A stretch of DNA of 64,000 nucleotides from Bacillota bacterium (GTDB lineage Bacteria; Bacillota; Sulfobacillia; Sulfobacillales; Sulfobacillaceae): assembly GCA_021821465.1 (NCBI GenBank), contig JAKACM010000002.1, forward strand, positions 1 through 64,000, in the 5' to 3' direction. This document shows positions 43,563 to 60,643 of this stretch, piece by piece; within the stretch, counting starts at the first letter, position 1, and every line of letters begins with the position of its first letter. The translations under genes and the position numbers were made by a program. Under the pieces are notes generated by a model. The model searched no databases and was not told the origin of the DNA. It saw nothing but the letters and a program-made list of their open reading frames with translations.

Positions 43563-45323
43563 TCACTCGACAATATTATTATCAAAGATCCATGCGTCCA
43601 CTTCCCCAGTCGGGATAGCCTCGGTATAAAAGCGCCCTTGCCCTGCCTCACAACCCCATTGACTTAAGACGCCTTGTTGTTCCCGGTTCTCTATGCCTTG
43701 CGCAATCACACTCAAGCCCAAGGAGCCGGCCAATCCAATAATGGACCGGATAATTCTTTTGCCTGACTCGGAAGCCCATTGCTTGGTCAATGTGGAATCG
43801 ATTTTGACAGCATTGACAGGCATGTGAAACAAGGTGTTTAAGGACATGGCACCCGCGCCAAAATCGTCCAAAACAATCTGGTAGCCTTGATTTTGAAAAC
43901 CGTCAAGAGACTCCATCATGTAATCCCCCGCCTTGTCACTCAGAGATTCTCGAATCTCGAAGATAATATCATGCGGCTGCACCAAGGGAAATTCATCGTG
44001 CAGGTGGATTAAATGCGTTTTCCAGGAAGTCAGGGACAAGTCGGCAAGATCGACGTTAATAGCAACCCTAAAGCTGTGCTTTTGAGAACGCCAGCGATTC
44101 ATATCTTCGAAAACACGGCGCAGTACGGCTTGATCCATTTGCTGAACAACATCCGGTGAGAGAACCGTCAAAAATGCCGAAGGATCGTGAACTTCTCCGG
44201 TAACATCCCGGTAGCGGACCACGGCTTCCCACTGAAAAGGCACTTTAAGCCTATTGTGTACAATGGGTTGGTAGTATACATCGATGCGGTTCGTTTTGAG
44301 AGCTCGTTGGATACGCTCCGACCACTTATTGCTCTCACCGATATCGATCCTGGCCAGATCGTGACCACCTGCCAAGAACCTTTTTGCCGTATAAAGCCTC
44401 TCATCGGCTAGTTTCAGAATGTGTTCGATGTCTTGGCCTTCATCGGGGTAGCGGGCATATCCGTATGAAGAAGACACTTGCACCCGGCCGACCTCTGCCA
44501 ACACAATAGGTTCTTCACAAGCCCGATGAAGGCGGTTTCCGAAACGCACAACGGTTTTGGTGCTCAAAGGGTTGGATAAAATCAACACAAATTCGTCACC
44601 CCCCCAACGCCCCAGCCAATCGGCAGGCCGCATCAATCGTTGCCATCTCTGCGCCACCGCACTGAGTACTCTGTCACCGGCAGCGTGGCCATAGGTGTCA
44701 TTGATAGATTTAAACCCGTTTAAATCAGCAGAAATCAACACAAATGGGGTTTTTTGCGCCAATAATGCATCAAGCCTCAATTGCGTGGCCAGGCGGTTCG
44801 CGCAAAGAGTGACCACATCTTGAAACATAAAATCCGAAAGATGAAAGGAACCTTTGAGATGGACTTCCATAAGAATCCGTTTGAATACCGTTTTCAGATA
44901 CTCTTGAACCCTAGACCCAGGTTTTTCGGAGGCAAATAACTCGTCGACAATGGCCCACAGCATCAGCCAATACCCTTCAATCCCTTCAATCCCTTCAACC
45001 CTATCTTGACCGAAGTTTCGATAAGACATGGGTTCCGTTCTTGGCCCCGGCGCTTCGGGATTTTTCTGAAGCCTCTCACACAATTCCTGTAATGCCATCA
45101 AAATTCCTGCATTGGAATTTGTCGCGGGTTTTCCTTTATTTTGGCGTGAATCCAAATCAATCCCTTGAGTCTCAGTGGTCCATAACCCCGCAGCGCGGTT
45201 AATAATTGCCGGCCAAGGCAGTTCCGCCATCTGCTGGATATCTTTCTCAGACCAGGGGCCTATACTTAATGCCTTTCCGCTGTCCTCACGGCGTTGTAGC
45301 GCCCCCGATTTGAAAGAAAACAT
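43563..45323 (-). CDS. GGDEF-EAL c-di-GMP metabolic protein
   Basis: 586 residues, ATG at 45323 after AAGGA. Residues 1-170 are an unrecognised sensory part without membrane helices. The GGDEF domain has LGRWGGDEFVLIL and an RPAD I-site five residues earlier. The EAL domain has EAV in place of EAL but keeps INVD, FEIRES, LDDFGAGAMS and VKIDS, so the metal-binding residues look intact. It may make or degrade c-di-GMP. It borders, on the opposite strand, a locus with a c-di-GMP riboswitch and an MshEN glycosyltransferase. Confidence 0.93.
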   Translation of the reverse strand: MFSFKSGALQRREDSGKALSIGPWSEKDIQQMAELPWPAIINRAAGLWTTETQGIDLDSRQNKGKPATNSNAGILMALQELCERLQKNPEAPGPRTEPMSYRNFGQDRVEGIEGIEGYWLMLWAIVDELFASEKPGSRVQEYLKTVFKRILMEVHLKGSFHLSDFMFQDVVTLCANRLATQLRLDALLAQKTPFVLISADLNGFKSINDTYGHAAGDRVLSAVAQRWQRLMRPADWLGRWGGDEFVLILSNPLSTKTVVRFGNRLHRACEEPIVLAEVGRVQVSSSYGYARYPDEGQDIEHILKLADERLYTAKRFLAGGHDLARIDIGESNKWSERIQRALKTNRIDVYYQPIVHNRLKVPFQWEAVVRYRDVTGEVHDPSAFLTVLSPDVVQQMDQAVLRRVFEDMNRWRSQKHSFRVAINVDLADLSLTSWKTHLIHLHDEFPLVQPHDIIFEIRESLSDKAGDYMMESLDGFQNQGYQIVLDDFGAGAMSLNTLFHMPVNAVKIDSTLTKQWASESGKRIIRSIIGLAGSLGLSVIAQGIENREQQGVLSQWGCEAGQGRFYTEAIPTGEVDAWIFDNNIVE

Positions 45324-45587
45324 ATTCTAACGTCCTTCCATTCACAGCTTTCGTGTTCTTTAACCAATTTTCTTAGCAGTATAGCAAAGCCCTTGGGGCC
45401 CCGAAAGTCTCAGATAGGGTCTCTGTTTTAACGAACCCCTATGGATGAAGGTTGGCAATGAGAGACGTCATTTGAGACAGATCTCGGGACTGCTAAGCAA
45501 ATCAACACTCTCTATAGTGGGTTTGTCACCACACAGGGTATAGGTGGCCAGTGTATTGTGAATAATCCTACGAAAGGAACGGTCCTT

Positions 45588-46130
45588 ATGAAATTAACGG
45601 CAATTTGGCGCATCATGGCATCCGTTGGAGTGACTAGCGCCCTGCTTTTGGGATCCGGCGGCTCGTCCATGGCCTCGGCCCCGGTGAACCAAGTGACAAA
45701 ATCGGCCCTCAACATGTCGGCTCCGAGAACTCTTGGAGAACCCCAAGCACCTTCCGTAATCCAAATGACCAATGCGAGCGGCAGCGGAACGATTACCATC
45801 ACTGAAACCAGTTCAACACAGGGAACGGCGACGTGGACATGGTCAGGATTAACCAAGAGCCAATATGTTTCTGTATATGTTGGACTCAAAAACAATCTTG
45901 GCCAACTCCAACTGCTCACTTCAAGTTCGGGACAGGTAACACAGTCCGGCCAGTATACCGCCAATATCACATTACCTTCCGGGGACACCTGGTCAAATGT
46001 TGAGATAAAAATGACGGAATCGGCTTTTGCTACCGGCCAGCTTCCCGAAGTTCCTTGGGCCGCAGGATTACCGCTTTTGTTATTGATTCCATTGGGAATA
46101 TCCATGAAGCGCCGTTTAACGCGCGCCTAA
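45588..46130 (+). CDS. Secreted protein with putative exosortase sorting signal (substrate 1)
   Basis: 180 residues from ATG at 45588 (AAAGGA nine bases upstream). A signal peptide (residues 1-31, MKLTAIWRIMASVGVTSALL...ASA) is followed by a Ser/Thr/Gly-rich, beta-type domain of about 110 residues. The end is GQLPEVPWAAGLPLLLLIPL, then GISMKRRLTRA: a short motif, a hydrophobic helix and a basic tail. That is the tripartite layout of exosortase/sortase substrates. The same motif recurs in the protein at 57794-58534, and an exosortase gene follows 300 bases downstream. Function is probably extracellular and structural. Confidence 0.75.
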   Translation: MKLTAIWRIMASVGVTSALLLGSGGSSMASAPVNQVTKSALNMSAPRTLGEPQAPSVIQMTNASGSGTITITETSSTQGTATWTWSGLTKSQYVSVYVGLKNNLGQLQLLTSSSGQVTQSGQYTANITLPSGDTWSNVEIKMTESAFATGQLPEVPWAAGLPLLLLIPLGISMKRRLTRA

Positions 46131-46150
46131 ATCCTTCATACCACTCTCAT

Positions 46151-46176
46151 CCCGCGAATATTTTCGCGGGTCTTTT
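46151..46176 (+). terminator. Terminator after substrate 1 gene
   Basis: CCCGCGAA (46151-46158), loop TATT, TTCGCGGG (46163-46170), then TCTTTTGG. It should separate the abundant substrate message from the exosortase message. Confidence 0.8.
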
Positions 46177-46265
46177 GGTCTTGACCCTTGATTCCAGAAC
46201 CTTGGGAATTGATTGGCACGGGGTATGCCGCAAAATAACACCGGATCATGTTCCCATTTCCGGAC

Positions 46266-46307
46266 TGCAGCCCATGCCGCCGTCTTTTGTCGGGGGCATG
46301 GGCTGCA
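46266..46307 (+). promoter_or_regulatory. Strong hairpin in the exosortase leader
   Basis: Exact 13-bp arms (TGCAGCCCATGCC at 46266-46278 and its complement at 46295-46307), 16-base loop, no T-run after it. It lies 120 bases before the exosortase start. A leader RNA structure or protein-binding element is possible. Confidence 0.5.
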
Positions 46308-46427
46308 AGTCTAAGTGGCATCCCTCCTGATACCGAGCTTGAGACCCGAAGAGGGACTGTCAAATCTGGTTCTCGTACCGTAGCATGGGCTCAAGTGTTA
46401 GGCAACGCTTTTCTAGGAGGATTTGAT

Positions 46428-48062
46428 GTGACTCGTGTCGAACAACATCGTGTCGGAAACCGAATGTCGGCATATTGGTTATTATGGGTGAGTGTCTCCG
46501 TGGCTCCATTGTTGGCTTATGCCAGCCCCTTATGGAATAACTTACTGGCTGACACGCCCATTGCCGATTTAATTTGGATCCCGATTATTGCATTGGGATG
46601 GGCGTTATGGAATATTCTATCCGACAACAATTCCCCAGAGCCGGATGACGGAGAACTCAACTTCATTTTGGGCACCATGTTGGCTGTCATGACAGGCGCG
46701 GCACTAATCTTGGCTCCGGAAAGATGGCCAATCTTATTCGTTCACGATCATGGCGGATTATTGTTATGGCCGTTTTGGATTTTGGCCATGACCTGGCTCT
46801 TTTGGGGACTTTCTGCCACCAGAGCCGTTCTGGCTCCCTTAACCTATTTGTTCTTGGTCTGGCCTCCAATTTTTGAAGCTGTCGCCAACGCTACGCAAAA
46901 TGTATTGGTCCATTGGGCAGTCGGATCCTTGGTTCTGTTCTCTCATGATGTCCAATGGCTTGTTCCTTCCTTGCCCGTTGGAACATTCTCGGTGTTGTAC
47001 CACAACCATCCGGTTCTGGTTGTGGTGGCTCAAGCCTGTAGCGGTGCAGACAGTCTCTTGGGTTCTGCCATCGTCATTCCGGTTTTATGGTTTGCCTTCA
47101 AAGGACGCCTGATAAGCAAGATGTGGATTAGTCTCCTGGCTCTTCTCGGATCCCTAATTATTAACTGGGTCCGTCTGGCTATTATTGTGCTGGCCGTTCA
47201 CCTGATTGGTCCCGGCATCACTTTTTCCGATATTCATCCCATCCTCGGCTTTTTGTTATTTGCCCTTTTGGTCGCAGGACTCCTGCTTTTGTCTCGACCT
47301 CTCGGGCTCGGTGTTCCCCCTCTCTCTTTAGACCCTCACATTAAGAAACCCGGATGGGGGCGAATAAGCAGTGCCGCGGTTTTAGCCGGAATCATCGTGA
47401 TTCTCTTGTGGCCATTGTTTTCACTTCCCGAAGGATCCTTTGGGAATCCGTCTACAGTACCGGTTTTCAATCCTCGTACCTTTCTTCCCCCCTTACCGGG
47501 GTTTGCAAAAAACCCGGTGTATTATGCCAATGAATCTTCGGTTTTGGGGCCGGGGGCGGCCACTCAGGCCGATATGTATTTCATTTCTGCCGGCACGGGC
47601 CAGGCCCTCGTCGAAATGTGGAGCACGCCTTCCGCGGCTAAATTGGCAACATACGGATTTCATGCCTGCCTTTTGTATCATGGAGATACCCTAAAGGCTG
47701 TGAAGTCATTCCAACTGGTACCCGGAGTCATTGCCACGGCTTACAGTGTTCAACTGCCGCCCAATTATGTCGGAGGTCCCCGTTCGACCTACGTCGATGT
47801 GGAATGGAACGACGCGGTTAGTGTTCACGGTCAAATTCGGTATATGCGGTGGTCAATCGCTGCTTTTCCGCACAATGCTCCCCTTCTTCCCCCGGGATTT
47901 CGCTCCCCAGGCTCTTTGAAACCTTTATCGGTGGTTCAGTCCATGGTAGCACCATCCTCCCAAGGTCATTGGGATTCCTGGATTGTGAAAACGCGGACGA
48001 CTTTGGTGGCAATGGCCGGCACAATTTTCCGTAACAGTCTCGAAAATCCCGGGCCAAGATAA
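46428..48062 (+). CDS. Exosortase with extracytoplasmic C-terminal domain
   Basis: 544 residues from GTG at 46428, perfectly placed seven bases after AGGAGG. About eight to ten membrane helices (residues 12-335) carry the exosortase active-site set: cysteine in AQACSGADSLLGS (about residue 204), arginine in INWVRLAIIVLAVH (about 249) and histidine in DIHPILGFLLFALL (about 270). Exosortases cleave C-terminal sorting signals in the membrane. Residues 340-544 form an extracytoplasmic domain with YGFHACLLYHGD, reminiscent of the EpsI/DUF3485 partner fused to some exosortases. Likely substrates are the QLPEVP proteins at 45588 and 57794. Confidence 0.87.
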   Translation: MTRVEQHRVGNRMSAYWLLWVSVSVAPLLAYASPLWNNLLADTPIADLIWIPIIALGWALWNILSDNNSPEPDDGELNFILGTMLAVMTGAALILAPERWPILFVHDHGGLLLWPFWILAMTWLFWGLSATRAVLAPLTYLFLVWPPIFEAVANATQNVLVHWAVGSLVLFSHDVQWLVPSLPVGTFSVLYHNHPVLVVVAQACSGADSLLGSAIVIPVLWFAFKGRLISKMWISLLALLGSLIINWVRLAIIVLAVHLIGPGITFSDIHPILGFLLFALLVAGLLLLSRPLGLGVPPLSLDPHIKKPGWGRISSAAVLAGIIVILLWPLFSLPEGSFGNPSTVPVFNPRTFLPPLPGFAKNPVYYANESSVLGPGAATQADMYFISAGTGQALVEMWSTPSAAKLATYGFHACLLYHGDTLKAVKSFQLVPGVIATAYSVQLPPNYVGGPRSTYVDVEWNDAVSVHGQIRYMRWSIAAFPHNAPLLPPGFRSPGSLKPLSVVQSMVAPSSQGHWDSWIVKTRTTLVAMAGTIFRNSLENPGPR

Positions 48063-48163
48063 TTTCCGGGATAAAAGTCTAATGACAAAACATCTCCTCC
48101 CACAAGCAGACAAGTTATTCAATCGAGCAAGAGATCAAAAAAATACGAAGTGAGGCAACCTCC

Positions 48164-50365
48164 GTGAGTGTGAGTGTTATAGAACTGTGGAATCAGGTTC
48201 CATCTGTCACTTTGATTGCGAATAGGCAACAAAAAGAGACCGTGATGCCGAAGATTGATCCCTCCGCAGCATTTCTCCTCCGAGCCGATCAGGCACGAGA
48301 TGCCGGTATTCTGCCCTTTCGCCGCGAAGACGGCTGTTTATGGGTGGCTGCAGCCGAACCGTTATCCCCTGCCGCTTGGGCACTTTTGGACCCTTTAGGA
48401 CCCATACGCATCTATCGTACCGTTTTAATTGATTTGTTGATGGCTCAATGGCAAGTCTATGGCGAGGGGAATGAAAGCCCGCCACTCTTTGGAGAAATTG
48501 CCGTCAAAAATTTTTCTCTAAACCCTCAGTTGATTGATCAGGCTCTTGCCGCTCAACATCAACAAAAAGGGCCCATCGGGCAAGCGTGTATGACCATAAA
48601 TCTTCTAAATTCTTGGCAAGTCGCCACTGTGCTGAGTGAGCAAACCGGCATACCTTTAAACAATCTTCTTGACACGAATCCCCCGGATCATCCGAATCTT
48701 GACGACATTTGGTCTCTTTTAACCAAAGAAGAATGGAGACACTATGCCATGGTCCCCATTCGCCACACATCACAAGAAATCCTAATCGCTGTGGTTAATC
48801 CTTTTGACAACAAGGGCCCCATGTCCTTGGCCGCAAAAACCGACAAACGGATCACCCTCACATTAACCGGGGAAAGAGATATCGCATGGCGACTGGCTTC
48901 TCATTATCAGGAACAGGACCTTAATCTGAGCCAGTCTCATCTTCTCAGCACAAGTCCAGAGAATTCCGCCACCAAAACCTTGACGCGATCTCAATCCTTA
49001 ACCCTCTTGCTAATGAGTTTGCTTATCATCGTCATGATCCTATGGCGTCCTCAAATATCTCTCTCGGTGATAAGCAGTATGTTGATTCTCGCTTACGCCA
49101 CCTTAGTGGGCCATCGGCTATGGATTATCAACAAAGGCACACAATCCCAGAACGATCTGCGTTTCACTGCCGAAGATTTGCAAAAACTGAAGGATTCGGA
49201 TCTTCCCATGTACACGATTTTAATCCCAGCACGCGATGAAGCTGCGGTTCTGCCCATTATGACTCAAGCTCTGGAGCAATTGGATTATCCTGGGGATCGT
49301 CTGGACGTTAAACTCTTGCTGGAGGAAGATGACGAAACAACTTTGGCGGCCGCCCGCCAAGCTCATCTCCCCCATTTTGTCGAAATCGTCGTGGTTCCGG
49401 TGGCTGAACCACGGACCAAACCCAAGGCTTGCAATTTTGGATTACAACGCGCACGGGGAGAGTTCATTACGATCTATGACGCCGAAGATCTGCCGGACCC
49501 CTTGCAACTGAAAAAGGCGCTGTTGGCTTTTCGTGAAAAGGACAGCCGTTTGGCTTGTGTTCAAGCCAAGTTGTCCTACTTTAATGCAAATCAAAATCTC
49601 CTAACCCGGTGGTTTACCGCAGAATACGGCGCCTGGTTTGACTTGCTGTTGCCGGCTCTTCATGCGGCCGATATGCCCATTCCGTTAGGAGGCACGTCCA
49701 ATCATTTCCGCACCCGCGTCCTGAAAGAAATCGGAGCATGGGATCCGTACAACGTGACTGAAGATGCAGATCTGGGAATTCGGTTGCACAAAGCCGGCTA
49801 CCGCACCCTTGTCATGGATTCCATAACTTATGAAGAAGCCAATTCCGAGTTTATCAACTGGATCAGACAGCGTTCCCGTTGGATAAAAGGCTACTTGCAA
49901 ACATGGTTCGTACACATGCGTCATCCTCTCCAATTGCGCCGGCAATTAGGGCGCAAGGGTTTTTGGGGATTTCATTTGGCAATTTTGGGCACTCCTTTGA
50001 TGTTTATCCTAAATCCCGTGTACTGGTTTATCACCTCACTCTGGTTTATGACGCATTGGGATATCATCCCGCATCTGTTTCCACCCGGTATTTATTATCT
50101 GGGTATGATAAATCTTTTGATCGGCAATTTTGCCTTTACTTACCTCAACATTGTGGGAGCAGCCAAACGCGGCCACTGGGACTTGATACCCTATGCCATC
50201 CTCACTCCCATTTACTGGAGCATGATGTCCTTAGCCTCATGGAAGGCTCTAATCCAGCTTATAACCAGGCCCTCACATTGGGAAAAAACTCAACATGGGC
50301 TGGTTGACTGGAAGAAAATCGGAGGACAAACGCCAAATGTTGTGGGGCAGGAAGGAAGCCATTAA
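48164..50365 (+). CDS. MshEN-domain family 2 glycosyltransferase (NfrB-like)
   Basis: 733 residues from GTG at 48164; ATG at 48245 is an alternative. Residues about 30-260 resemble MshEN/GspE N-terminal modules (GPIGQACMTINLLNSWQVAT, VLSEQTGIPLNNLL), known to bind c-di-GMP in some proteins including NfrB. Two membrane helices at about 290-325 precede a processive GT2 domain: ILIPARDEAAVLP, IYDAEDLPDPL, NVTEDADLG and the QRSRW (QxxRW) motif. Four further helices follow. It should polymerise a sugar across the membrane, plausibly gated by c-di-GMP. Sits directly after the exosortase. Confidence 0.87.
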   Translation: MSVSVIELWNQVPSVTLIANRQQKETVMPKIDPSAAFLLRADQARDAGILPFRREDGCLWVAAAEPLSPAAWALLDPLGPIRIYRTVLIDLLMAQWQVYGEGNESPPLFGEIAVKNFSLNPQLIDQALAAQHQQKGPIGQACMTINLLNSWQVATVLSEQTGIPLNNLLDTNPPDHPNLDDIWSLLTKEEWRHYAMVPIRHTSQEILIAVVNPFDNKGPMSLAAKTDKRITLTLTGERDIAWRLASHYQEQDLNLSQSHLLSTSPENSATKTLTRSQSLTLLLMSLLIIVMILWRPQISLSVISSMLILAYATLVGHRLWIINKGTQSQNDLRFTAEDLQKLKDSDLPMYTILIPARDEAAVLPIMTQALEQLDYPGDRLDVKLLLEEDDETTLAAARQAHLPHFVEIVVVPVAEPRTKPKACNFGLQRARGEFITIYDAEDLPDPLQLKKALLAFREKDSRLACVQAKLSYFNANQNLLTRWFTAEYGAWFDLLLPALHAADMPIPLGGTSNHFRTRVLKEIGAWDPYNVTEDADLGIRLHKAGYRTLVMDSITYEEANSEFINWIRQRSRWIKGYLQTWFVHMRHPLQLRRQLGRKGFWGFHLAILGTPLMFILNPVYWFITSLWFMTHWDIIPHLFPPGIYYLGMINLLIGNFAFTYLNIVGAAKRGHWDLIPYAILTPIYWSMMSLASWKALIQLITRPSHWEKTQHGLVDWKKIGGQTPNVVGQEGSH

Positions 50366-50460
50366 CCATGAAACGGCTCAACTTGAACCCATCTTCCCGA
50401 ACGTCGCCCTTAATCGGCCGGATTCTCGCGAAACATCATCGTAATCGAAAGGAGTCAGTC

Positions 50461-50682
50461 ATGTTATTTCGACATTACATCATTATAGGGCCACTGATTG
50501 TTGTCGCGGCAAGTTTGATATTAATGCTTGGGACCTTTTGGATCATCGATTTCGCCCCCTTAACTTTTTTTGTAGGTACAGGAATAGTTTATGGCCTGCT
50601 GTCCTCACAGAAAAAGCGTAATAAAGTGAAAGGGCTCATCCCTATTCCGACAAGTGTTCCTCTGGAGGATTCCCATGAGTAG
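50461..50682 (+). CDS. Small two-helix membrane protein
   Basis: 73 residues from ATG at 50461 (AAAGGAG six bases upstream). Helices at about residues 5-25 and 30-45, then a basic segment SSQKKRNKVKG. Its end overlaps the start of the next gene. No family was recognised. Placement between two glycosyltransferases suggests an accessory subunit of the synthase. Confidence 0.6.
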   Translation: MLFRHYIIIGPLIVVAASLILMLGTFWIIDFAPLTFFVGTGIVYGLLSSQKKRNKVKGLIPIPTSVPLEDSHE

Positions 50683-52345
50683 TGCTATCGTTGATTCTCC
50701 ACGCCGTATTGAGCCCCTTCACGCACCAGAGATAAAATCTCCCCTGGTCACAGAAACCCGTCATAAAATGAGCCTTGAAACCTTACTCTCATTGTTGGCA
50801 TTTGTTGTGAATTGTGCCGCCGCGGTGTATCTTGTATTCGACATTCATTACTACGCGGGAGACGCGATATCTCGAGTAGCCAACGCCTATTACGTATTAT
50901 TCAGCCGCAATCCCCATTTGGGCGCCATTGGCTTTATTTGGAACCCATTGCCCAGCCTCTTGGAACTCCCTCTCGTGACTCTTCATCCGTGGTTCGGATC
51001 TGTTGTCACTAAAGGCCTGGCCGGATCGTTAATCTCAGCCGGATTGGGATCTGTAGGAACGTATCATCTTGCCCGTATTCTCCAAAATATGTCCCTACCG
51101 AAGTCGTGGCGAATAATCCTGACTTTGTGCTTTTCTCTCAATCCCCTTATCGTCCTTTATGGGGCTAATGGGATGAGCGATATCATGTGGGTGGCATGTA
51201 TGTTAGGAACCTACAGCGGGCTCTTCGATTATCTTCAGTCCGGTTCGCTTCGCCGTTTGGTTGCGGCGGGTATTTGGCTAGCCATGGGTTTGGGAATGCG
51301 CTACGAAGCCGTGCCCTTCGGTCTTCTGGTGATAATCGCCCTAATCTTGGGGCAATGGGGAACAAAACACTTATCTCACATACAAGGCTCCGCAATTCTT
51401 TTAGGTGCGCCTATTGTGTTTGCGGGAGGGGTCTGGATCTATTTTAACTGGATTATCATGAAAAACCCGCTTTATTTTCTCAATTCCAGTTATGGCAATT
51501 TAGCCCAAACCGCAACCGGAGCCTACATGACCTCCGCTATGATCAAGGCCCATCACCATATCTTAAGCGCCATTCTTTATATTGTACGCTTTGGCCTATT
51601 ATATTGGCCCATTTACCCCGGATTTTTGGTAACCTTGTGGTACTCTTTCGGAAAAAAGCGCGATCCACGCGCTCTTATTCTCATTGCAGGAACCATCGGG
51701 GCAGAATTACTGGAGCTGTTCTTCTCCTATGAAGGACATTTGGGCCAATGGGACCGATACTTTCTTGAATTTATTCCCAACGGAATTCTTTTGGGATCCT
51801 TTGCCGCCCACAAAATTTTCTCTGCACGACAATCTTGGTCAAAAACCCGGCGAGTATGGGCCGGCATATTTCTCATGGTCCTTTTTATCTCCGGCAGCAT
51901 GTTCACGGCAAAAACTTTGCAGGTATCCTATCTGGGCCACCCAGACGGACAGATTCTCAATGCCGTCTTTCAAGGTCAGTCCTTGAAAAATACCGGAAAC
52001 AATCCTTTTTATGGTGACCAACGGCTTATACAATATATCAATCACCATCCCCATCTCAGTATTTTGGCGGACACTTTTATTGATTGGCCGATTATTATTC
52101 GCTCCCAGCACCTCAATCAGTTCACCATCACATCCGATTACAATTTTTCGTCAGTTCTTCATAATCCGAAAGGACGCATTGCCGCATTTCTCGTCCCCGA
52201 GCCGATAAAGGTCGCGCAACTGGACGCCATTAATCGCGCATGGCCTGGATTGTGGGCCGGACACGTAACATGGACACGCCTTATTCGGGCTTTCCCCGGG
52301 GGAAATAACTACCGGCTCTATGCCATTTTACCCTCGGCCCCCTAG
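50675..52345 (+). CDS. Polytopic membrane glycosyltransferase, GT39/ArnT-like
   Basis: 556 residues from ATG at 50675 (GGAGG six bases upstream), overlapping the preceding stop. About ten to twelve helices. The first extracytoplasmic loop has YYAGDAISRVANAYYVLF, an acidic residue in the position used by protein-mannosyltransferase and ArnT-type enzymes. GMRYEAVPFGLLVI and a C-terminal soluble tail follow. Such enzymes move a sugar from a polyprenyl phosphate donor to a protein or lipid outside the membrane. The donor could be made by the GT2-GtrA protein at 55462. Confidence 0.75.
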   Translation: MSSAIVDSPRRIEPLHAPEIKSPLVTETRHKMSLETLLSLLAFVVNCAAAVYLVFDIHYYAGDAISRVANAYYVLFSRNPHLGAIGFIWNPLPSLLELPLVTLHPWFGSVVTKGLAGSLISAGLGSVGTYHLARILQNMSLPKSWRIILTLCFSLNPLIVLYGANGMSDIMWVACMLGTYSGLFDYLQSGSLRRLVAAGIWLAMGLGMRYEAVPFGLLVIIALILGQWGTKHLSHIQGSAILLGAPIVFAGGVWIYFNWIIMKNPLYFLNSSYGNLAQTATGAYMTSAMIKAHHHILSAILYIVRFGLLYWPIYPGFLVTLWYSFGKKRDPRALILIAGTIGAELLELFFSYEGHLGQWDRYFLEFIPNGILLGSFAAHKIFSARQSWSKTRRVWAGIFLMVLFISGSMFTAKTLQVSYLGHPDGQILNAVFQGQSLKNTGNNPFYGDQRLIQYINHHPHLSILADTFIDWPIIIRSQHLNQFTITSDYNFSSVLHNPKGRIAAFLVPEPIKVAQLDAINRAWPGLWAGHVTWTRLIRAFPGGNNYRLYAILPSAP

Positions 52346-52545
52346 AATTTATCGCTTCGAGATGTTGCATTGATACCCCGTGCGTGGTATCCAAAAAAAT
52401 TTACGAAGAATTATCCGGATACGATTTGACGAAAGAAATCCGACCGATTATGGTAAAAATATCATCATAAACATCTTCCTCTAATTGTTCAACAATTGCG
52501 TGACACAAAAAGTGATAACAAAGATGAGAGGTTGAACAGAAGGGC

Positions 52546-52645
52546 GCATCGAAAAGGGCAAACCTAGCGAAAACTAGGGACGCAAAACTAGAGGGGCTTC
52601 TCGTTAATAAGCGAATGCCAGCCAGTTGCCGAAATGGGAGCGGAT
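52546..52645 (+). ncRNA. Cyclic di-GMP-I (GEMM-I) riboswitch
   Basis: The conserved core reads GGGCAAACC, stem CCTAG/CTAGG closed by a purine loop, GGGACGCAAA, a second stem, then GCCAGCC and GTTGCCG. These are the hallmark segments of the class I c-di-GMP aptamer, including the tetraloop stem and the GCCAGCC receptor part. It is followed within ten bases by an intrinsic terminator and then the IPT-repeat secreted protein gene, so it should control that gene by c-di-GMP level. Confidence 0.92.
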
Positions 52646-52652
52646 AAAAAAA

Positions 52653-52690
52653 GGACACTTTCCCAACTTTCGGGAAGGTGTCCTTTTTTT
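52653..52690 (+). terminator. Riboswitch expression-platform terminator
   Basis: GGACACTTTCCC (52653-52664), seven-base loop, GGGAAGGTGTCC (52672-52683; one G-U pair), then seven T. It lies just after the c-di-GMP aptamer and 33 bases before the start codon. Confidence 0.92.
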
Positions 52691-52722
52691 CAACATTCTC
52701 CGCACAAGGGGGAATAGTCGAT

Positions 52723-55029
52723 ATGCGCGTTCTCGCGAAAACTCTAGTCGTTTGTCTAGGTCTTATGATTCTTAGCACCACCAATGTTCCCCTGAAAATG
52801 GACAGCACGGCCACAGTTCAGATCCCCTCACCACTTCGCACCACCATTAGTCGCCTTGATTACGGGATCAATGTATTCTCTTACGATAATCAACTTAATG
52901 CTCCCTCCACGCTTCCCGCTTTAAAACAATTAGACTTCGGGATGCAACAGTTTCCCAATGCGAATGAATGGAGTTGGACATCGAATTCTTTTCGTTCCGG
53001 CGGACAGGCTCCAGTTTCCTTAAAGGACTGGGGCCACATCTTACAATCGACCGGCAATCAAGGGTTGTTCATCTTTAATTATGATGAAAATCCTACGTTT
53101 ACCGGCGGTGGCACCCCCCAAGACGCCGCAGAGCTCACACAATACATCATGGCACAGCATCTGCCCATATCAGCCATCGTGATCGGCAGTGAAGAGTACG
53201 GATCATGGGATCACTATGCCAATCTTAACCCTTCATTTTCCCCGCAGTATTATGCCCATCAGTCGGCCTTGATTGCCCAAGCCATTCACCTGGTCGATCC
53301 CGCAATGAAGGTGGGGGTCTCCTTTACACTGGGCCAAGGTCCCAACAGCTTGCAATGGGATCAGACGGTGTTGCGCCAAGATGGCCCCTACATCAATTTT
53401 GTCAGCGTTCACGATTATCCGAATCAACAAACTCTGAGTAATCATTCGCTTTTGGCCAGCTTGCCGGGAGAAATTGCCCAGGCTATGCAGTTTATAAAAA
53501 CGGAAATTGCCGCCAATGTCCCTCCCCAGTACGCCTCTCACATACAAACCTGGGTCACCGAATTTAATCCCTATGGGCAGCCAGGACCCCAATCGTTGCA
53601 ACCGATTTACGGCGCAGCCATGGTCGAAAGTGCCATGCTTTGGAGAGCTTTTTCCGCGAACAGACTCTTTATTTGGAGTTATGACGGCCAAGCTCATGTC
53701 GCCAACTCATCATGGCCGGTCGCAACAAATTCTTCCCAACCTTTTGGACTCTTCGCTCTAACCGGAGACGGCCAAAGCCCTGAGTTGGGCATGAATGCCT
53801 TTTATCCTTCCGCCGTGGACTTGTCCCAATTTATGCAAGCTATTGGATCCCAAGGCCGTTTGTCCCTGTGGGCCACGCCCAACACGGTCGTGGGACAAGT
53901 GACTTCTAATCAAGGCTCACACGTGTTTGCCATTAATACCGGCACACAAACACAGACTTTGTCTTTATCTCATTCATCGTCCCAAATACCTCCGGCTTCC
54001 ATAGGGATTTACAGCAATCAGTCGGTTTCACCCTCTAACTTTCAGATAACCACTGATATGCCCGGAACTATGACCACTTACCAAGCAAATCTGCCCACGA
54101 TTCGGGAACCCTTGAGTGGTACACCCGGGGACACCATCACACTATCCGGATCGGGTTTCGGAGAAAAAAGCGTCAATTCTCATGTAGTCATCAGCCAAAA
54201 TGGAATAAATTACGGAGGAATTCAAGACGCTTATACCGTGTCGATCCAATCATGGACACCAAATCAAATCCGCTTTGTGATTCCCGGCGGTGCTTCGGGC
54301 CCCGCTCTCAGTACCGGATCAGCCCAGATTATTGTCGAAACCGGAAGCCAAGTGGTGTCTACACCCGCCCCCTTAACCATTTTGCCCGGATCTCACCCCA
54401 ATGCCTCTATTGCTTCGCAAAACATATATCCGGGAGGCCTGGTGACGATCTCAGGGTCTCACTTCGGCAATCAACAAGGTTCGGGTTATATTCTCATTTC
54501 TCAAAATGGCATTAACTATGGGGCCCCGTCTGATGTTTATAAAGTAGAGGTTATACAGTGGACCAATGATCAAATTCAAGTGCAGATTCCCGGCGGCGCT
54601 TCGGGCCCGGCCCTCACAACGGGAAAGGCATCGCTCCAAATTGTTAGCGCATCTCATCAAAGTACAGCGCCCCTAGCACTCACGATTGGCTCCCCGCCGC
54701 AGTTGAGTGCCGCGATAGATATGACATCAGCCGTTCATCCCGGCCAAATCGTTACCATAACCGGCTCGAACTTTGGTGTTCAACAAGGCCACGGTTATGT
54801 GGAAGTGAGTCAAAGTGGCGTAAACTATGGTGCACCGTCCGACTATTATCCGATTCAAATTCAGCATTGGTCAAACTCCGCCGTGTCTTTTATGGTGCCC
54901 ACCAACAAAGAATCTATTGACAATCGCTTTGAACCCAATCTGAGCCCCGGAAAAGCTACGGTGACCCTCACGAATGACACGGGATTAAAAAGTCTGCCCT
55001 TGTCTCTCATTGTTGCGGAAACTTCATGA
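52723..55029 (+). CDS. Secreted glycosidase-like protein with three IPT/TIG repeats
   Basis: 768 residues from ATG at 52723 (AAGGGGG ten bases upstream). Signal peptide at 1-24. Residues about 40-430 look like a clan-A TIM-barrel glycoside hydrolase: acid candidate in IVIGSEEYGSW, nucleophile candidate in QTWVTEFNPYGQPG, plus FVSVHDYPN. Three IPT/TIG-like repeats follow, about 95 residues apart, each with PGxxxTISGSxFG, SQNGINYG and IPGGASGPAL-type segments. There is no C-terminal sorting signal, so it is probably released. It lies behind a c-di-GMP riboswitch, so a role in processing or binding the locus polysaccharide is likely. Confidence 0.8.
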   Translation: MRVLAKTLVVCLGLMILSTTNVPLKMDSTATVQIPSPLRTTISRLDYGINVFSYDNQLNAPSTLPALKQLDFGMQQFPNANEWSWTSNSFRSGGQAPVSLKDWGHILQSTGNQGLFIFNYDENPTFTGGGTPQDAAELTQYIMAQHLPISAIVIGSEEYGSWDHYANLNPSFSPQYYAHQSALIAQAIHLVDPAMKVGVSFTLGQGPNSLQWDQTVLRQDGPYINFVSVHDYPNQQTLSNHSLLASLPGEIAQAMQFIKTEIAANVPPQYASHIQTWVTEFNPYGQPGPQSLQPIYGAAMVESAMLWRAFSANRLFIWSYDGQAHVANSSWPVATNSSQPFGLFALTGDGQSPELGMNAFYPSAVDLSQFMQAIGSQGRLSLWATPNTVVGQVTSNQGSHVFAINTGTQTQTLSLSHSSSQIPPASIGIYSNQSVSPSNFQITTDMPGTMTTYQANLPTIREPLSGTPGDTITLSGSGFGEKSVNSHVVISQNGINYGGIQDAYTVSIQSWTPNQIRFVIPGGASGPALSTGSAQIIVETGSQVVSTPAPLTILPGSHPNASIASQNIYPGGLVTISGSHFGNQQGSGYILISQNGINYGAPSDVYKVEVIQWTNDQIQVQIPGGASGPALTTGKASLQIVSASHQSTAPLALTIGSPPQLSAAIDMTSAVHPGQIVTITGSNFGVQQGHGYVEVSQSGVNYGAPSDYYPIQIQHWSNSAVSFMVPTNKESIDNRFEPNLSPGKATVTLTNDTGLKSLPLSLIVAETS

Positions 55030-55054
55030 TCTTAACCTCAATTACTCTGTCTAT

Positions 55055-55088
55055 TCCCGGCACGGAATTCTTGGTGCCGGGATTTTTT
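55055..55088 (+). terminator. Terminator after the IPT-repeat protein gene
   Basis: TCCCGGCAC (55055-55063), ten-base loop, GTGCCGGGA (55074-55082), then TTTTTT. Confidence 0.92.
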
Positions 55089-55461
55089 ATTCTGAGAAGG
55101 TTTTGCGAATAGATCGTTTGTGTTGAGGACTCCATAACCCTTGGACATGGATATGTTAGCTCATGACAGAGTCTTCGAAGATCCCTTGTCACCGTAGTCT
55201 TCTTGTTGTCCAACCCTATAGCCATCTTCCCTAAGTCCGCAAAACTCCTGTCCTCGGTACCCAATTGTCCGTGATCGTTCACCGAGCCGTCATGATTTCC
55301 TTCACAATAATGGTTTCACCCCGGTTCTCGGCGCATCCGAATAGGGTGGCCGTCTTTAAACCTCGTTGAGACACACTTTGGGACGGGTGATCGGACTGTA
55401 TGTCCAAGCCTTCTTTTCTAGGATAGATTTAACAAGAATTGAGGGAGGCCATGGTTCTGCT

Positions 55462-56667
55462 ATGCAAGAATTTGCCGAGCAATACCCAAAAATGTTCCCC
55501 TATGGTGATAAACTCGTATCCGTCGTAATACCCGCCCACAATGAGAGACAGCATATCGCTCAAGCCATAGAGTCGGTCACAAGAGAATTTGATCGCATAG
55601 GTATGGCACTCGAAGTTATTGTGGTGGACGACGGTTCAACCGACGGCACCTATCATGAGGCCGTCAATGTTCGCACAGACTGCCCATCAATGGAAGTCAT
55701 TGCCTTGGAGAAAAATCGTGGCAAAGGCTATGCCCTTCGTACCGGATTTAGCCACAGCCACGGCGATGTGGTCGGATTCATTGATGCCGACTTGGAATAC
55801 CCGGTTAACGCCTTACCGATTATGGCCGCATTAGTTCTTGAATCCGGACAGTCGTGCGCCATTGCTTCTCGGGTAGCCGACGATCGTTCTCATATAGAAC
55901 GTATGTCCTCGCATATAGCCCACAAACTCACATCCCTCGTTCTGCATCTTCCCATTAAGGACACCCAAGCGGGAATCAAAATGTTTCCCGGTTCTTTTGC
56001 CCGGACTGTTCTGACCCAGTGTGCACAGCAAGGATGGCTCTATGACATTGAAGCGCTCCTTCGGGTTGTGGAACAGCCTTTTGATGTCATTGAGGTACCT
56101 GTGATGCAAAAGAGTGTGCGCAGAAGACGTGCCACTTTGTGGACGATGGTAGCATGCACTCCTTCCCTCTTCAGGCTAGCCTTATCACACCGCCAATCCT
56201 TAAAACGTCATTCGTCTAAGGAAATCCGCCAGCTGCTTCGATTTGGCTTAACGGGATTGGTTAACACCTTGGTGGATCTGGGTATCTATTGGGGATTGAT
56301 TCAGTTATGGCCACCCGATTTCAACGGCTTGCAATCGGGTTTCGAATCATTACTGGCATGGATGGGTGCAAGTTTCATCGGCTATAAATTGCACTCACGA
56401 TATACCTTCCGTCGACACCTGTCTCGTCCGGGCTTCTATCTTGTTACCGGGATTGGCGTGGCGGTCCAAGCAAGTGTTACCGGATGGCTGACTCATATAT
56501 CGGGTACCGAAGGAGGTCTCATCGGCAAAGTGGCGGGTATTGTCCTGGCATCGTTAATCACATATGGTGGATACCGCATTGTCGCCAAACATAGCGAACC
56601 ATTGCCATCTGTTGCTCCGAGCATTCGTACAGCCAATATTCCCACGATCTTAGGGCAAGAACTTTAA
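55462..56667 (+). CDS. GT2 polyprenyl-phosphate glycosyltransferase fused to GtrA
   Basis: 401 residues from ATG at 55462; GGGAGG lies 14 bases upstream, so the start is only fairly sure. Residues 15-240 are a DPM1-like GT2 domain: VSVVIPAHNERQHI, VVDDGSTDGTY, GYALRTGF and FIDADLEYP. After a basic linker, residues about 255-385 form a four-helix GtrA domain (IRQLLRFGLTGLVNTLVDLG). Such fusions make a polyprenyl-phosphate sugar and help flip it. The product could serve the GT39-like enzyme at 50675. Confidence 0.87.
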   Translation: MQEFAEQYPKMFPYGDKLVSVVIPAHNERQHIAQAIESVTREFDRIGMALEVIVVDDGSTDGTYHEAVNVRTDCPSMEVIALEKNRGKGYALRTGFSHSHGDVVGFIDADLEYPVNALPIMAALVLESGQSCAIASRVADDRSHIERMSSHIAHKLTSLVLHLPIKDTQAGIKMFPGSFARTVLTQCAQQGWLYDIEALLRVVEQPFDVIEVPVMQKSVRRRRATLWTMVACTPSLFRLALSHRQSLKRHSSKEIRQLLRFGLTGLVNTLVDLGIYWGLIQLWPPDFNGLQSGFESLLAWMGASFIGYKLHSRYTFRRHLSRPGFYLVTGIGVAVQASVTGWLTHISGTEGGLIGKVAGIVLASLITYGGYRIVAKHSEPLPSVAPSIRTANIPTILGQEL

Positions 56668-57793
56668 GTGCCCCGACTCCCTCGCCTAAGAAATGGAACA
56701 TATCAACTTCCGGAACTTAAATGCAACCTCGGCTGGGTCACCAGAAAATCCTGGTTTTGCCCATCACTCCTTTTTGTCAGGAACTTGAAGGGTCATAATC
56801 GATCCCTTTGACAAAGACATAAGCAAACCGTTCTCTACGGGCTTGATACCATGGCGGATCCCCCACCAAAATGACAATGCTCACGGCAAGCCTCGGTCCT
56901 AAATCGGCACAGCTTTTTATGGTCGGTTACTTCTGATATGCTCGACAAGAGGTAGTGCCTATTTCGCTGCCGCGCTTAGGAATCGGGCAAACTGGGAGGA
57001 ATAATATTCCCTGATAGTAAATCGCGACCATGGATCCACACCCCGCCAGCGTCTGGATCGGAATGCCAGTGTTGAGCATGTTGATGTGTTGTGATTTCTC
57101 CGAGAAAGGCTAATGCCCATTCGGGCTGGCCAACAGAAGGCGGTGAATTCTCCCTAAAGATGGTTTCGGTTTGGTTCCGGTTTGCGGATCCGATCGTTGT
57201 CTAATTGTTTTTGAGCGGCGACCAATTGCAGAGGACAATCGCTCAAGGACCATGTCATCTCACAGCGAGGCATATTCTGTCGTGAGATCACCCTGTTAAA
57301 GGACGACCAAGCATTTCTGGTATCCTCCCTTTCATTGAATACGGCAGCAAATATAGTGATATGTGGCATTGCTAGCGGAATTCGATTGAATCCACCGACT
57401 GAGAGTGATAACATCCCCGCCCGTTAAGTTAAGTAGCGCGAATGTCCTCCCGTTGATCATTACATACTTCGAAAAAATCCCTTGAAAATTATGTCCTGAG
57501 GGTTGAGATGGAAATCGGAGAGCCATCTGTTGACGGCAGAAAAAATATCGATACGGTGACGGAAGAATCCAAGTCGGCTTTGGATCCCAAACCCAGTATT
57601 AACGACCGATCATTCCCGCCTGCATTGACCTCTTAGAAATCAGAATCAGGTAACAACTTCGCTACCACATCCCGCAACACTCGTAGTTGGTTGCTACGAT
57701 TCAGTTTGCCAAAATATATGACATACCATCCACTTCTTATCCATGGATGGTATTGTCTTTGGAGCATGTCGCATTTGAAGAAAAGATTATTCT
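56668..57793. other. Long intergenic region with decayed coding sequence
   Basis: About 1.1 kb. Near 56780-56890 the minus strand reads VILVGDPPWYQARRERFAYV and then a stop, protein-like but unassigned. Other frames at 57154-57526 are short. A 10-bp hairpin lies at its right end. Confidence 0.4.
57723..57753 (-). terminator. Hairpin after substrate 2 gene
   Basis: ATACCATCCA (57723-57732) and TGGATGGTAT (57744-57753) pair exactly. It lies 40 bases past the stop of the leftward substrate gene; the following tract is only AT-rich, so terminator strength is uncertain. Confidence 0.5.
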
Positions 57794-58534
57794 TTAGCCG
57801 ATTTTCCCGATGGAAGTTGCTGCCCTTTTTCCGGTTGTTTTGCGAAAACGCCATATGAGGACAGCGGCTCCTGCGCCCGCTAGGGGGAGAGCGGCTGCGT
57901 ACGGAACTTCGGGCAATTGACCATAGGGAAGATTTCCCAAGGCGTCGCTTGTTCCGGCAACCACGTCATCAGACCAAGACGGATCATTGGATATTCCCAT
58001 GCGAAAAGTATACCGTGCGTTCGAACTGGAGGAATTTTCCGCCGGAGGGGAAAATATGCGCAAGTTCTCATTCTGGCTGCCGGACACTCCGGAAGGCAGC
58101 GAAAATTGGTACTCCGCCGCCCCTGAAACACTGCCGTGAGTGCCGGGTTTAAAAGTAATTCCGGGATTTCCGGGAGTAATAAGGGTAGCGGAATACGGCG
58201 TGGAATTTACCACATTACCGTCCTTCATTAACTGAATATATATCGTAGACGGAAATGCATGGAAATTCTTCGTGTCAGAACTGCCGTCGGCACTGTTTTG
58301 GGCGACCGTGACTGTCAAGTCAAACTTCCGGCTTGAACCCTGAACGGGACTAACAGAGAGATTTATTAATTGAAATTTGGAACCGCCATTTGACTGATGA
58401 TGCTGCGAATCCTGAACAGTTCCATTGATTGGTGCCGCAAAAGTCATCGGCGATAGTGCGATGACCATTCCCGTAATCGCGGAGACTAGTCCAATTCTGC
58501 CCGCTACGCGAGCACTAATGCGAGAAAAATTCAT
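57794..58534 (-). CDS. Secreted protein with putative exosortase sorting signal (substrate 2)
   Basis: 246 residues, ATG at 58534 after GAGGAG. Signal peptide at about 1-34 (ending TFAAP), then a Ser/Asn-rich beta-type domain of about 175 residues. The C-terminus is YGQLPEVPYAAALPLAGAG, a hydrophobic helix and RFRKTTGKRAATSIGKIG. The motif GQLPEVPxAAxLPL is shared with the protein at 45588, while the rest is not obviously similar. That points to a common sorting signal read by the exosortase at 46428. Opposite strand to the rest of the locus. Confidence 0.75.
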   Translation of the reverse strand: MNFSRISARVAGRIGLVSAITGMVIALSPMTFAAPINGTVQDSQHHQSNGGSKFQLINLSVSPVQGSSRKFDLTVTVAQNSADGSSDTKNFHAFPSTIYIQLMKDGNVVNSTPYSATLITPGNPGITFKPGTHGSVSGAAEYQFSLPSGVSGSQNENLRIFSPPAENSSSSNARYTFRMGISNDPSWSDDVVAGTSDALGNLPYGQLPEVPYAAALPLAGAGAAVLIWRFRKTTGKRAATSIGKIG

Positions 58535-58895: not shown

Positions 58896-60559
58896 TCATA
58901 TTTCCCGAATGACCCCATCTCTTAATTCCCATTTAATCCCCTCGAACTTATCAATGAACCATCTATCATGAGATACGGCCACTATGGCACCGGGAAATTC
59001 ATTCAAGGCACTTTCTAATTCCTCCAACACATCGAAAGCTATGTGATTCGTTGGTTCATCAATGAGTAATAATGCAGGTCTCGAAGCAATAATTTTTGCG
59101 ATTTCGAGCTTTCTATAACTGCCCGGGACTTAACTGATCAACTCGCATGAGACAGTCGTCGAAGCTTGTGTAAAGTCCAAAGGACAATAGTTGAGTTACA
59201 TGCTCATCTAAGGCACCCACTAATTCTTGGCGAAAATAATCTAAGACTGACAACTGAATGCCTTGAGGGGATGCATCTTGTCTTAAATAGCCTATTTTGA
59301 TCGGAGACGGGATAAAAACCTGCCCCTCATCTGCTTGGCGTCGCTGAACAATGATGTCAAGCAATGTAGACTTCCCCGCGCCGTTAGGTCCGGTTAATAG
59401 CATGTGCTCGTCCCGTCCCAAAGTAAATCTCACCTTCTTTAAAAGTCTCCGCCCATCATTAAGCCTAAGAGATAATTCTGAAACCGACAAAGAATACGGA
59501 CTATTCACCCGCTCACGGATGAAATTTGCATGAAATTTCAAGGGTTCCGGCGGTCTTCGGACCATCTCCTTCTTTAATTGATCTATACGAGTTTGGACAG
59601 ACCGAAGATTACGGGATACAGCCCTTTGAACACTTTGCCCGCGCGCATCATAAGCGGATTTGTCGTGGTCTTTGGGCGGACGGTGATGACCGATTTGGCG
59701 TGCCTTGTCATGTAATCTTGTGCGAAGCACGTTTAATTCCTCTTGCTGCAATTCATATTGTTCCTCCCAGCGGCGGCGTTCGATCAATTTCTGCTGACGA
59801 TAGGCGTCATAGTTTCCGACATAAGTCCGAAGTTGGTGATCATGCTCGTCAATTTCAAACACCTTCGTCACCACACAATTCAAAAAGCGCCTATCATGAG
59901 AGGCTATCATGAGAGGCTATCAAAACGGTTCCGCGGTATTTTAAGAGATAACTTTCAAGCCACTGAAGCATCTGGATGTCTAAATGGTTCGTCGGTTCAT
60001 CCAACAGCAGTAATTCCGGGGACCATATGAGCAGAGTTGCCAACCCAAGGCGCGTTAGTTCCCCTCCCGATAATTGCGCGAGTTTATGCGTTCTCTCGAG
60101 GTGGCGCAAAGATAAGGCCTGTATCACACTTTCAATTCGAAGGTCAAGTTCGTAACCACCTCGTTGCTCGAATCGGGTAGCTAATTGGCCATATTCGTCC
60201 ATAATTTCTTCAAGACGCATCGGATCGGAAGTCGACATACTCAATGCCAACTTAGACATCTTTTGTTGCATATTCCTTAAGGGCAGCACGCAATCGTCGA
60301 TTAAACTACCAACGGTCTGATCCAGAGAATACGACAAGGTCTGCGGGAGGTAACCCATATCCTCAAGATTTGTTATCGCAATTGATCCTTGGTCTGGAAA
60401 TTCCAGGCTCTTTATAATCTTTAACAGTGTAGACTTTCCGGAACCGTTTGCTCCTACGAGAGCTGCGCGTTCACCAATCCCTAGGTGTAAAGAAATCTTA
60501 TCCAAAACGATCCGAGCGCCGTAAGCCTTAGAAATCCCATCCAGTGCAACACCTGCCAT
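58896..60559 (-). pseudogene. ABC-F ATPase broken by a 13-bp duplication and a second frameshift
   Basis: ATG at 60559 (GGAGG seven bases upstream). The first cassette has Walker A GANGSGKST, signature LSGGELTRLG and LLLLDEPTNHLDIQ. At 59891-59916 a 13-bp unit is repeated in tandem and throws the frame off after IASHD. The second part resumes with IASHDRRFLNCV, a coiled linker, Walker A GPNGAGKST, then LSPG, where one extra base in CCCGGGC shifts frame again. The rest reads YRKLEIAKII, LLLIDEPTNH and VSHDRWFID to a stop at 58896. ABC-F proteins act on the ribosome, often giving antibiotic protection. Not functional as written unless the repeat collapses. Confidence 0.88.
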
Positions 60560-60643
60560 AACTATCCCTCCGCGGTAGACATCCAAACCTCATCCACTGT
60601 TCTGGCGATTTTTCGTCCGTTAAGCCAAGCTAATCCCCCGTAG

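Follow-up and report, generated by a model that had tools for sequence, protein, structure and literature searches.

A locus in the 64,000-nucleotide stretch analyzed here (the window; contig JAKACM010000002.1, from a 4.96-Mb genome of the class Sulfobacillia, Bacillota) probably encodes a system of Sulfobacillia dedicated to surface-polymer formation and protein sorting, in which cyclic di-GMP (c-di-GMP) would act on a polysaccharide synthase and on a secreted glycosidase. We put the probability of this reading at about 0.7. Seven co-directional genes (45588-56667, + strand) encode, in order, a secreted protein with a C-terminal QLPEVP signal (protein A), an exosortase, a synthase that joins an MshEN domain to a family 2 glycosyltransferase (MshEN-GT2), a small protein with two predicted transmembrane (TM) segments, a PMT-like glycosyltransferase, a glycoside hydrolase of clan GH-A with IPT domains, and a GT2-GtrA fusion. 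A GGDEF-EAL gene lies divergently upstream, and a second tail protein (protein B) is encoded downstream on the opposite strand. Every part that a first-pass annotation had named in the locus was found in the window.

Results

Proteins A and B carry matching C-terminal signals, as first proposed. Protein A (45588..46130, +; likely start ATG 45588) has a signal peptide, a Ser/Thr-rich body and the QLPEVP signal (codons at 46038-46055, +), and secreted protein B (57794..58534, -) ends in the same motif (codons at 57902-57919, -); the two signals read QLPEVPWAAGLPLLLLIPLGISMKRRLTRA and QLPEVPYAAALPLAGAGAAVLIWRFRK. A degenerate 18-mer DNA pattern for QLPEVP matched twice in the whole genome, both times in the locus, and its backward control had 0 matches in the same genome. 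Moreover, a genome-wide tail profile search (E<=0.01) returned the same two proteins and no further ones. Protein A has 13 homologues, mostly encoded beside an exosortase, and protein B has 9. The window tails had no match in NCBIfam. Nothing points to glycosylation of the QLPEVP proteins, and that part of the original proposal is not supported.

Tails and exosortases occur together. Across 101 related genomes, our own tail rule (position at the frame end, a hydrophobic stretch and a basic terminus) left 55 true tails among the motif matches, 49 of them in proteins with an N-terminal hydrophobic stretch fitting a signal peptide; outside this order, no motif match was a tail by that rule. With a profile built from 20 tails and genomes called at E<=1e-3, tails were found in 25 of the 101 genomes, 22 of which encode a PF09721 exosortase, and 67 genomes have neither. 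The Fisher p values for this association (3.5e-12 overall; 2e-5 within the family, where the counts are 20/3/1/10) overstate independence because the sampled genomes are related. Each genome encodes up to six such small substrates. The tails beside exosortases change with the enzyme (QLPEVP, TPEVPY, TPETPY, VPETPY), and exosortases outside the core have adjacent variant tails such as TPETPYTAIFAI, VPETPYAAVFP and TPEVPYA, as well as NLPEVP. In one genome (L146, G009:C58), a stretch of about 2 kb downstream of the genes for the glycosidase and the GT2-GtrA fusion encodes three tail proteins, two recognized by motif and the third by profile.

The exosortase (46428..48062, +) belongs to a known superfamily. 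It scores 54.2 bits against PF09721 (cutoff 25.7) and 41.4 bits against TIGR04178 (cutoff 23), it has the Cys/Arg/His residues (Cys193, Arg238 and His259 in a 533-amino-acid numbering from 46461, invariant in 22 aligned exosortases), and cognate tripartite tails are present in the same genome. The likely start is GTG 46428, with the Shine-Dalgarno sequence AGGAGG at 46415. An in-frame extension to 46248 was rejected because it lacks homology and because a good Shine-Dalgarno sequence precedes 46428. An AlphaFold model (predicted local distance difference test score, pLDDT, 85) shows a membrane portion built of helices, to which an alpha/beta domain is fused at the C terminus. No relative of solved structure was found by sequence, and none by fold at E<=0.001; sub-significant fold matches, including alpha-beta domains of the LpqN/MTC28/PsbP/DcrB type, probably reflect the C-terminal domain. 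The nearest named relatives are from Sulfobacillus benefaciens and Bacillota metagenome-assembled genomes. The enzyme cannot be filed as XrtG, XrtA or XrtV. It scores 18.6 bits against the XrtG model TIGR03110 (cutoff 102.75), 36.3 against TIGR03109 (208) and 45.2 against TIGR02602 (105.55), the last two testing for XrtA/PEP-CTERM, and the XrtA and XrtV models outscore XrtG. As all named subclass cutoffs are missed widely, we conclude that, judged by these models, the exosortase is an unnamed subclass. Genus g6 has another exosortase type, shorter at about 330 amino acids (L085, L091, L092, L093), each copy with an adjacent small secreted protein that has a PETPYA- or PQTPYA-type tail.

The polymer genes travel with the exosortase. 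MshEN-GT2 was found in 23 of the 101 genomes, and 22 of the 23 are exosortase positive. The neighborhood is kept over several genera and in three other families (G037/G041, G057, G088), and synteny with glycosyltransferases (MshEN-GT2, PMT and GtrA), on which the original proposal had staked itself, is clearly seen in relatives. These comparisons indicate that the locus is conserved and not a product of chance. The multi-TM PMT-like enzyme (50654..52345, +; GT-C type), first labeled GT39-like, scores above the PMT_2 cutoff (33.1 bits versus 26.1) and is syntenic in relatives, as is the GT2-GtrA fusion (55366..56667, +; GT2 106 bits, GtrA 46 bits), which is of the polyprenyl-phosphate sugar synthase type. 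Between MshEN-GT2 and PMT, the first-pass annotation overlooked a 104-codon frame (50368..50682, +; likely start ATG 50461) with two predicted TM segments; its homologues occur in many loci and are conserved beside MshEN-GT2 or PMT, and the protein may hold a PgaD-like position.

Beyond this group, the synthase is found apart from the exosortase. Among 398 Bacillota, the exosortase family was confined to the same class, and MshEN-GT2 occurred also in G248, G299, G413 and G436 (L173, L171, L174 and L172). PMT and GT2 genes are nearby in most of these four, a BcsB-type protein is encoded in three, and no exosortase was found in the fetched stretches around the synthases. The BcsB-bearing clusters are a cellulose-synthase-like system in which MshEN replaces PilZ. 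Because other Bacillota carry MshEN-GT2 without an exosortase, the synthase module is, from this sample, probably the older and the exosortase an addition.

The synthase (48164..50365, +) joins a polymer-synthase core to a candidate c-di-GMP receptor domain. Its GT2 motifs DxD, the ED of TED, and QxxRW are invariant in 18 homologues (columns D439-D442, E533-D534 and Q569-W573), and its MshEN domain scores 56.2 bits against a Pfam cutoff of 23.1. The closest solved relatives in the Protein Data Bank are the c-di-GMP domains of MshE and PilB/PilF, and BcsA. In MshE, each 24-residue motif provides a guanine-stacking Arg, a Gly and a Gln (PMC5013675). Across the 18 homologues, G139 and both Gln residues are invariant, G110 is nearly so, and the Gln-Gln spacing of 29 residues equals that of MshE; the Arg positions are variable, with Arg present in the G041 homologue. 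Thus, c-di-GMP binding is likely for the family, as far as conserved ligands can tell. G011 has an additional, remoter MshEN-GT2 (L165, 34% identity), some 1.4 Mb away from its main locus.

The GGDEF-EAL protein (43563..45323, -; EAL 170 bits, GGDEF 118 bits) likely is a diguanylate cyclase, since the GGDEF motif and the RxxD I-site are intact. Its EAL signature reads EAV, and AEG(V/I)E has become AQGIE; most orthologues have the canonical residues. In EAL enzymes, such substitutions at catalytic positions go with weak or no phosphodiesterase activity, and the changes suggest the same here. As a proposed member of the locus, the gene does stand beside it, but linkage of orthologues to the system is limited to six genomes: five (G000, G005, G006, G025 and G032) carry one next to the exosortase, and G009 carries one next to the glycosidase genes. 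Elsewhere the orthologues are unlinked.

A c-di-GMP-I riboswitch precedes the secreted IPT protein, as first noted. The aptamer (52547..52633, +) scores 76.7 bits against RF01051 (gathering score 35). Nineteen genomes carry it immediately before this gene, 21 copies in all (G000-G007, G009, G011, G014, G015, G022, G024, G025, G032, G033, G037 and G057); in G002, G003, G004, G014, G015, G022 and G025, it is the sole c-di-GMP-I aptamer found. After the aptamer come a hairpin followed by a U tract, resembling an intrinsic terminator (52646..52690, +), and complementarity between ATTCTCC and GGGGGAAT (52695..52715, +) that forms an anti-Shine-Dalgarno stem ahead of the start codon. We take ATG 52723 as the likely start because GTG 52678 falls within the leader hairpin. 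The hairpin is conserved; the U tract is shared by the window leader and a few relatives but missing in many others. The leader also permits alternative pairings of a GGGA that follows the aptamer. In the leader alignment, no competing pairing was decisive for ON versus OFF polarity, and the claim that c-di-GMP switches the system on is not supported.

The riboswitch-controlled protein (52723..55029, +) is more than an IPT protein. Three IPT/TIG domains (TIG 45.8 bits) are indeed present, but the label was incomplete, as the model also contains a predicted GH-A barrel. Best Foldseek matches are bacterial heparanase, PslG, a GH79 glucuronidase and GH51 (E ~1e-12), and two Glu residues, E172 and E295 (783-amino-acid numbering), are conserved. 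By its predicted fold, the protein is a secreted clan GH-A glycosidase of PslG/GH79/GH51-like type; GH79, GH39 (PslG) and GH51 score about equally. Because the target of the riboswitch is a glycosidase, the protein may trim or release polymer instead of serving a structural role. In G057, a group II intron (RF02005, 153 bits; L156:10715-10955) lies near the end of, or just past, the glycosidase gene.

Discussion

How sorting and polymer synthesis might be combined can be outlined. Small secreted proteins would be exported by Sec and retained in the membrane by the C-terminal helix, whereupon the exosortase, by its Cys-Arg-His residues, would cut at or near QLPEVP and pass the new C terminus to an acceptor, perhaps a lipid or lipid-linked glycan. 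In parallel, MshEN-GT2 would polymerize and extrude a polysaccharide, and the GT2-GtrA protein would supply a sugar linked to polyprenyl phosphate, which the PMT-like enzyme may transfer to the polymer or to an acceptor outside the membrane. c-di-GMP could enter twice: through the synthase's MshEN domain, a likely route in the family at large and an uncertain one in the window copy, and through the riboswitch, in whichever direction it acts, on the glycosidase, which may trim, release or bind the polymer. The polymer would then be a surface polysaccharide, possibly of a biofilm. We speculate further that the exosortase covalently joins the QLPEVP proteins to a glycolipid or polysaccharide made by the synthase and that the glycosidase releases them, such that c-di-GMP governs how a glycoprotein matrix is both assembled and shed, but we consider this extended version decidedly unlikely.

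The comparisons establish which genes are present, that their linkage is conserved, that signal and enzyme co-occur, where the riboswitch lies and that a glycosidase fold is predicted. The proposal of a surface polysaccharide and exosortase-processed proteins under c-di-GMP survives in these respects, but not in the switching on or the glycosylation. Several observations weigh against the reading. Three tail-positive genomes lack a detected exosortase (G017, G023 and G024, although the G024 contig stops 0.4 kb beyond the tail gene, where the exosortase is expected). The expectation that the exosortase does not occur without QLPEVP proteins mostly holds, with adjacent variant tails in distant copies, but G036 and G037 encode a related exosortase with no tail found beside it. 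In G002 and G003, about 0.19 Mb separates the exosortase from the synthase and the glycosidase, and therefore they need not act as one machine. Finally, the window MshEN lacks both Arg residues, with Leu and Pro at the equivalents of MshE Arg9 and Arg38, and scores 19.4 bits against NF053729 (cutoff 38). The domain keeps the Gly and Gln ligands but does not have the RLG...Q tandem motif with both Arg residues, and binding by the window copy is doubtful.

The separation in G002 and G003, where exosortase and tails are together away from MshEN-GT2, PMT and IPT, would fit two independent neighbors, one a c-di-GMP-regulated synthase plus glycosidase, the other an exosortase that sorts a handful of small surface proteins and is functionally unconnected to the polymer. 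The MshEN-GT2 clusters of other Bacillota, which mostly have BcsB and showed no exosortase in the stretches retrieved, are consistent with that arrangement, and G036 has an exosortase and no MshEN-GT2 match in its genome. Co-occurrence in 22 of 23 genomes, adjacency in most genomes, other families included, and the link of exosortases elsewhere to exopolysaccharide (EPS) (PMC1569441) place this reading on the unlikely side. Control by c-di-GMP might instead be residual, the riboswitch governing the glycosidase and the window synthase no longer sensing the nucleotide. The two lost Arg residues and the low NF053729 score favor this, as Arg9 matters for c-di-GMP binding in MshE (PMC5013675), and so does the linkage of GGDEF-EAL in only six genomes; we nonetheless think it unlikely, given the invariant Gln residues and Gly, the nearly invariant second Gly and the MshE-like spacing, and given that motif mutations in MshE and NfrB have graded effects (PMC5013675, PMC8669469). 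We consider it improbable that the locus is a diverged version of the XrtG/Firmicu-CTERM system found in Gram-positive bacteria. Lactobacilli do have an equal parts list, an exosortase, a CTERM protein and two glycosyltransferases (PMC12854382), and TIGR03111, the XrtG-associated glycosyltransferase, weakly matches all 18 synthases, but the score for the window synthase, 32.8 bits, is far under the cutoff of 363.95. Moreover, XrtA and XrtV score higher than XrtG on the exosortase, the tails have no NCBIfam match, and MshEN, riboswitch and glycosidase lie outside the XrtG system as described (PMC12854382).

The preferred reading, a dedicated polymer and sorting system, has partial likenesses among known systems. 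XrtG/Firmicu-CTERM shares a Gram-positive host and the clustering of exosortase, CTERM protein and two glycosyltransferases (PMC12854382), but the window exosortase and glycosyltransferase fall far below its cutoffs, and the window system has another tail motif, several dispersed targets per genome, a fused MshEN, a riboswitch and a glycosidase. PEP-CTERM/EpsH (XrtA) likewise has tails in three parts, a motif, a hydrophobic helix and a basic end, together with a Cys-Arg-His enzyme and an EPS link (PMC1569441). The window system differs in its motif, xPE(V/T)P(W/Y/F) and not PEP, in a Gram-positive host, in the C-terminal domain fused to the enzyme and in failing to reach the XrtA and 8TM_EpsH cutoffs. 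NfrB, a characterized, c-di-GMP-activated GT2-MshEN synthase of Escherichia coli, likewise joins MshEN to a processive GT2 with DxD, TED and QxxRW (PMC8669469), but the domain order is reversed, the window MshEN being N-terminal, and its outer-membrane partner NfrA, for which no search was made, is unexpected in a monoderm. The GT2 core matches BcsA of bacterial cellulose synthase, and G248 and G436 combine MshEN-GT2, PMT and GT2-GtrA with BcsB; the window cluster has an exosortase and no BcsB was seen in it, and it has MshEN, not PilZ. The endoglycosidase PslG (GH39) is encoded in the Pseudomonas psl operon. The window glycosidase shares its clan GH-A fold and its place in an EPS locus, but only about 14% identity; it carries fused IPT domains, and its gene follows a c-di-GMP riboswitch.

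As XrtG/Firmicu-CTERM is known in lactobacilli, finding an exosortase in a Firmicute is no novelty by itself, and the statement that exosortases are mainly Gram-negative is out of date (PMC12854382). The new elements are the exosortase subclass and its tail motif, the MshEN fusion, the pairing of riboswitch and glycosidase, and the breadth of conservation. In the titles and abstracts of the open-access papers retrieved, we found no account of an exosortase locus under direct c-di-GMP control. An earlier comparison of bioleaching bacteria, S. thermosulfidooxidans included, reported L. ferriphilum as the only one with an exosortase system (PMC5418355). The acceptor to which exosortases attach their substrates appears still unsettled, and here the enzyme forms a compact set with its small substrates (at most six in a genome), a synthase and a glycosidase; riboswitch and MshEN offer a testable c-di-GMP input. 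The genus serves biomining, where mineral attachment matters.

Other frames lie in and near the locus. A 197-amino-acid frame antisense to protein A (45512-46105) has no NCBIfam match and was taken as a shadow open reading frame. The 1.1 kb between GT2-GtrA and protein B (56668-57793) holds only a short unmatched frame (57154-57414). Beyond protein B, an ABC-F-like ATPase gene (59113-60586, -) is seemingly split into overlapping frames, 59113-59910 and 59894-60586, that have IASHD in common at the joint, indicating a frameshift or a sequence error.

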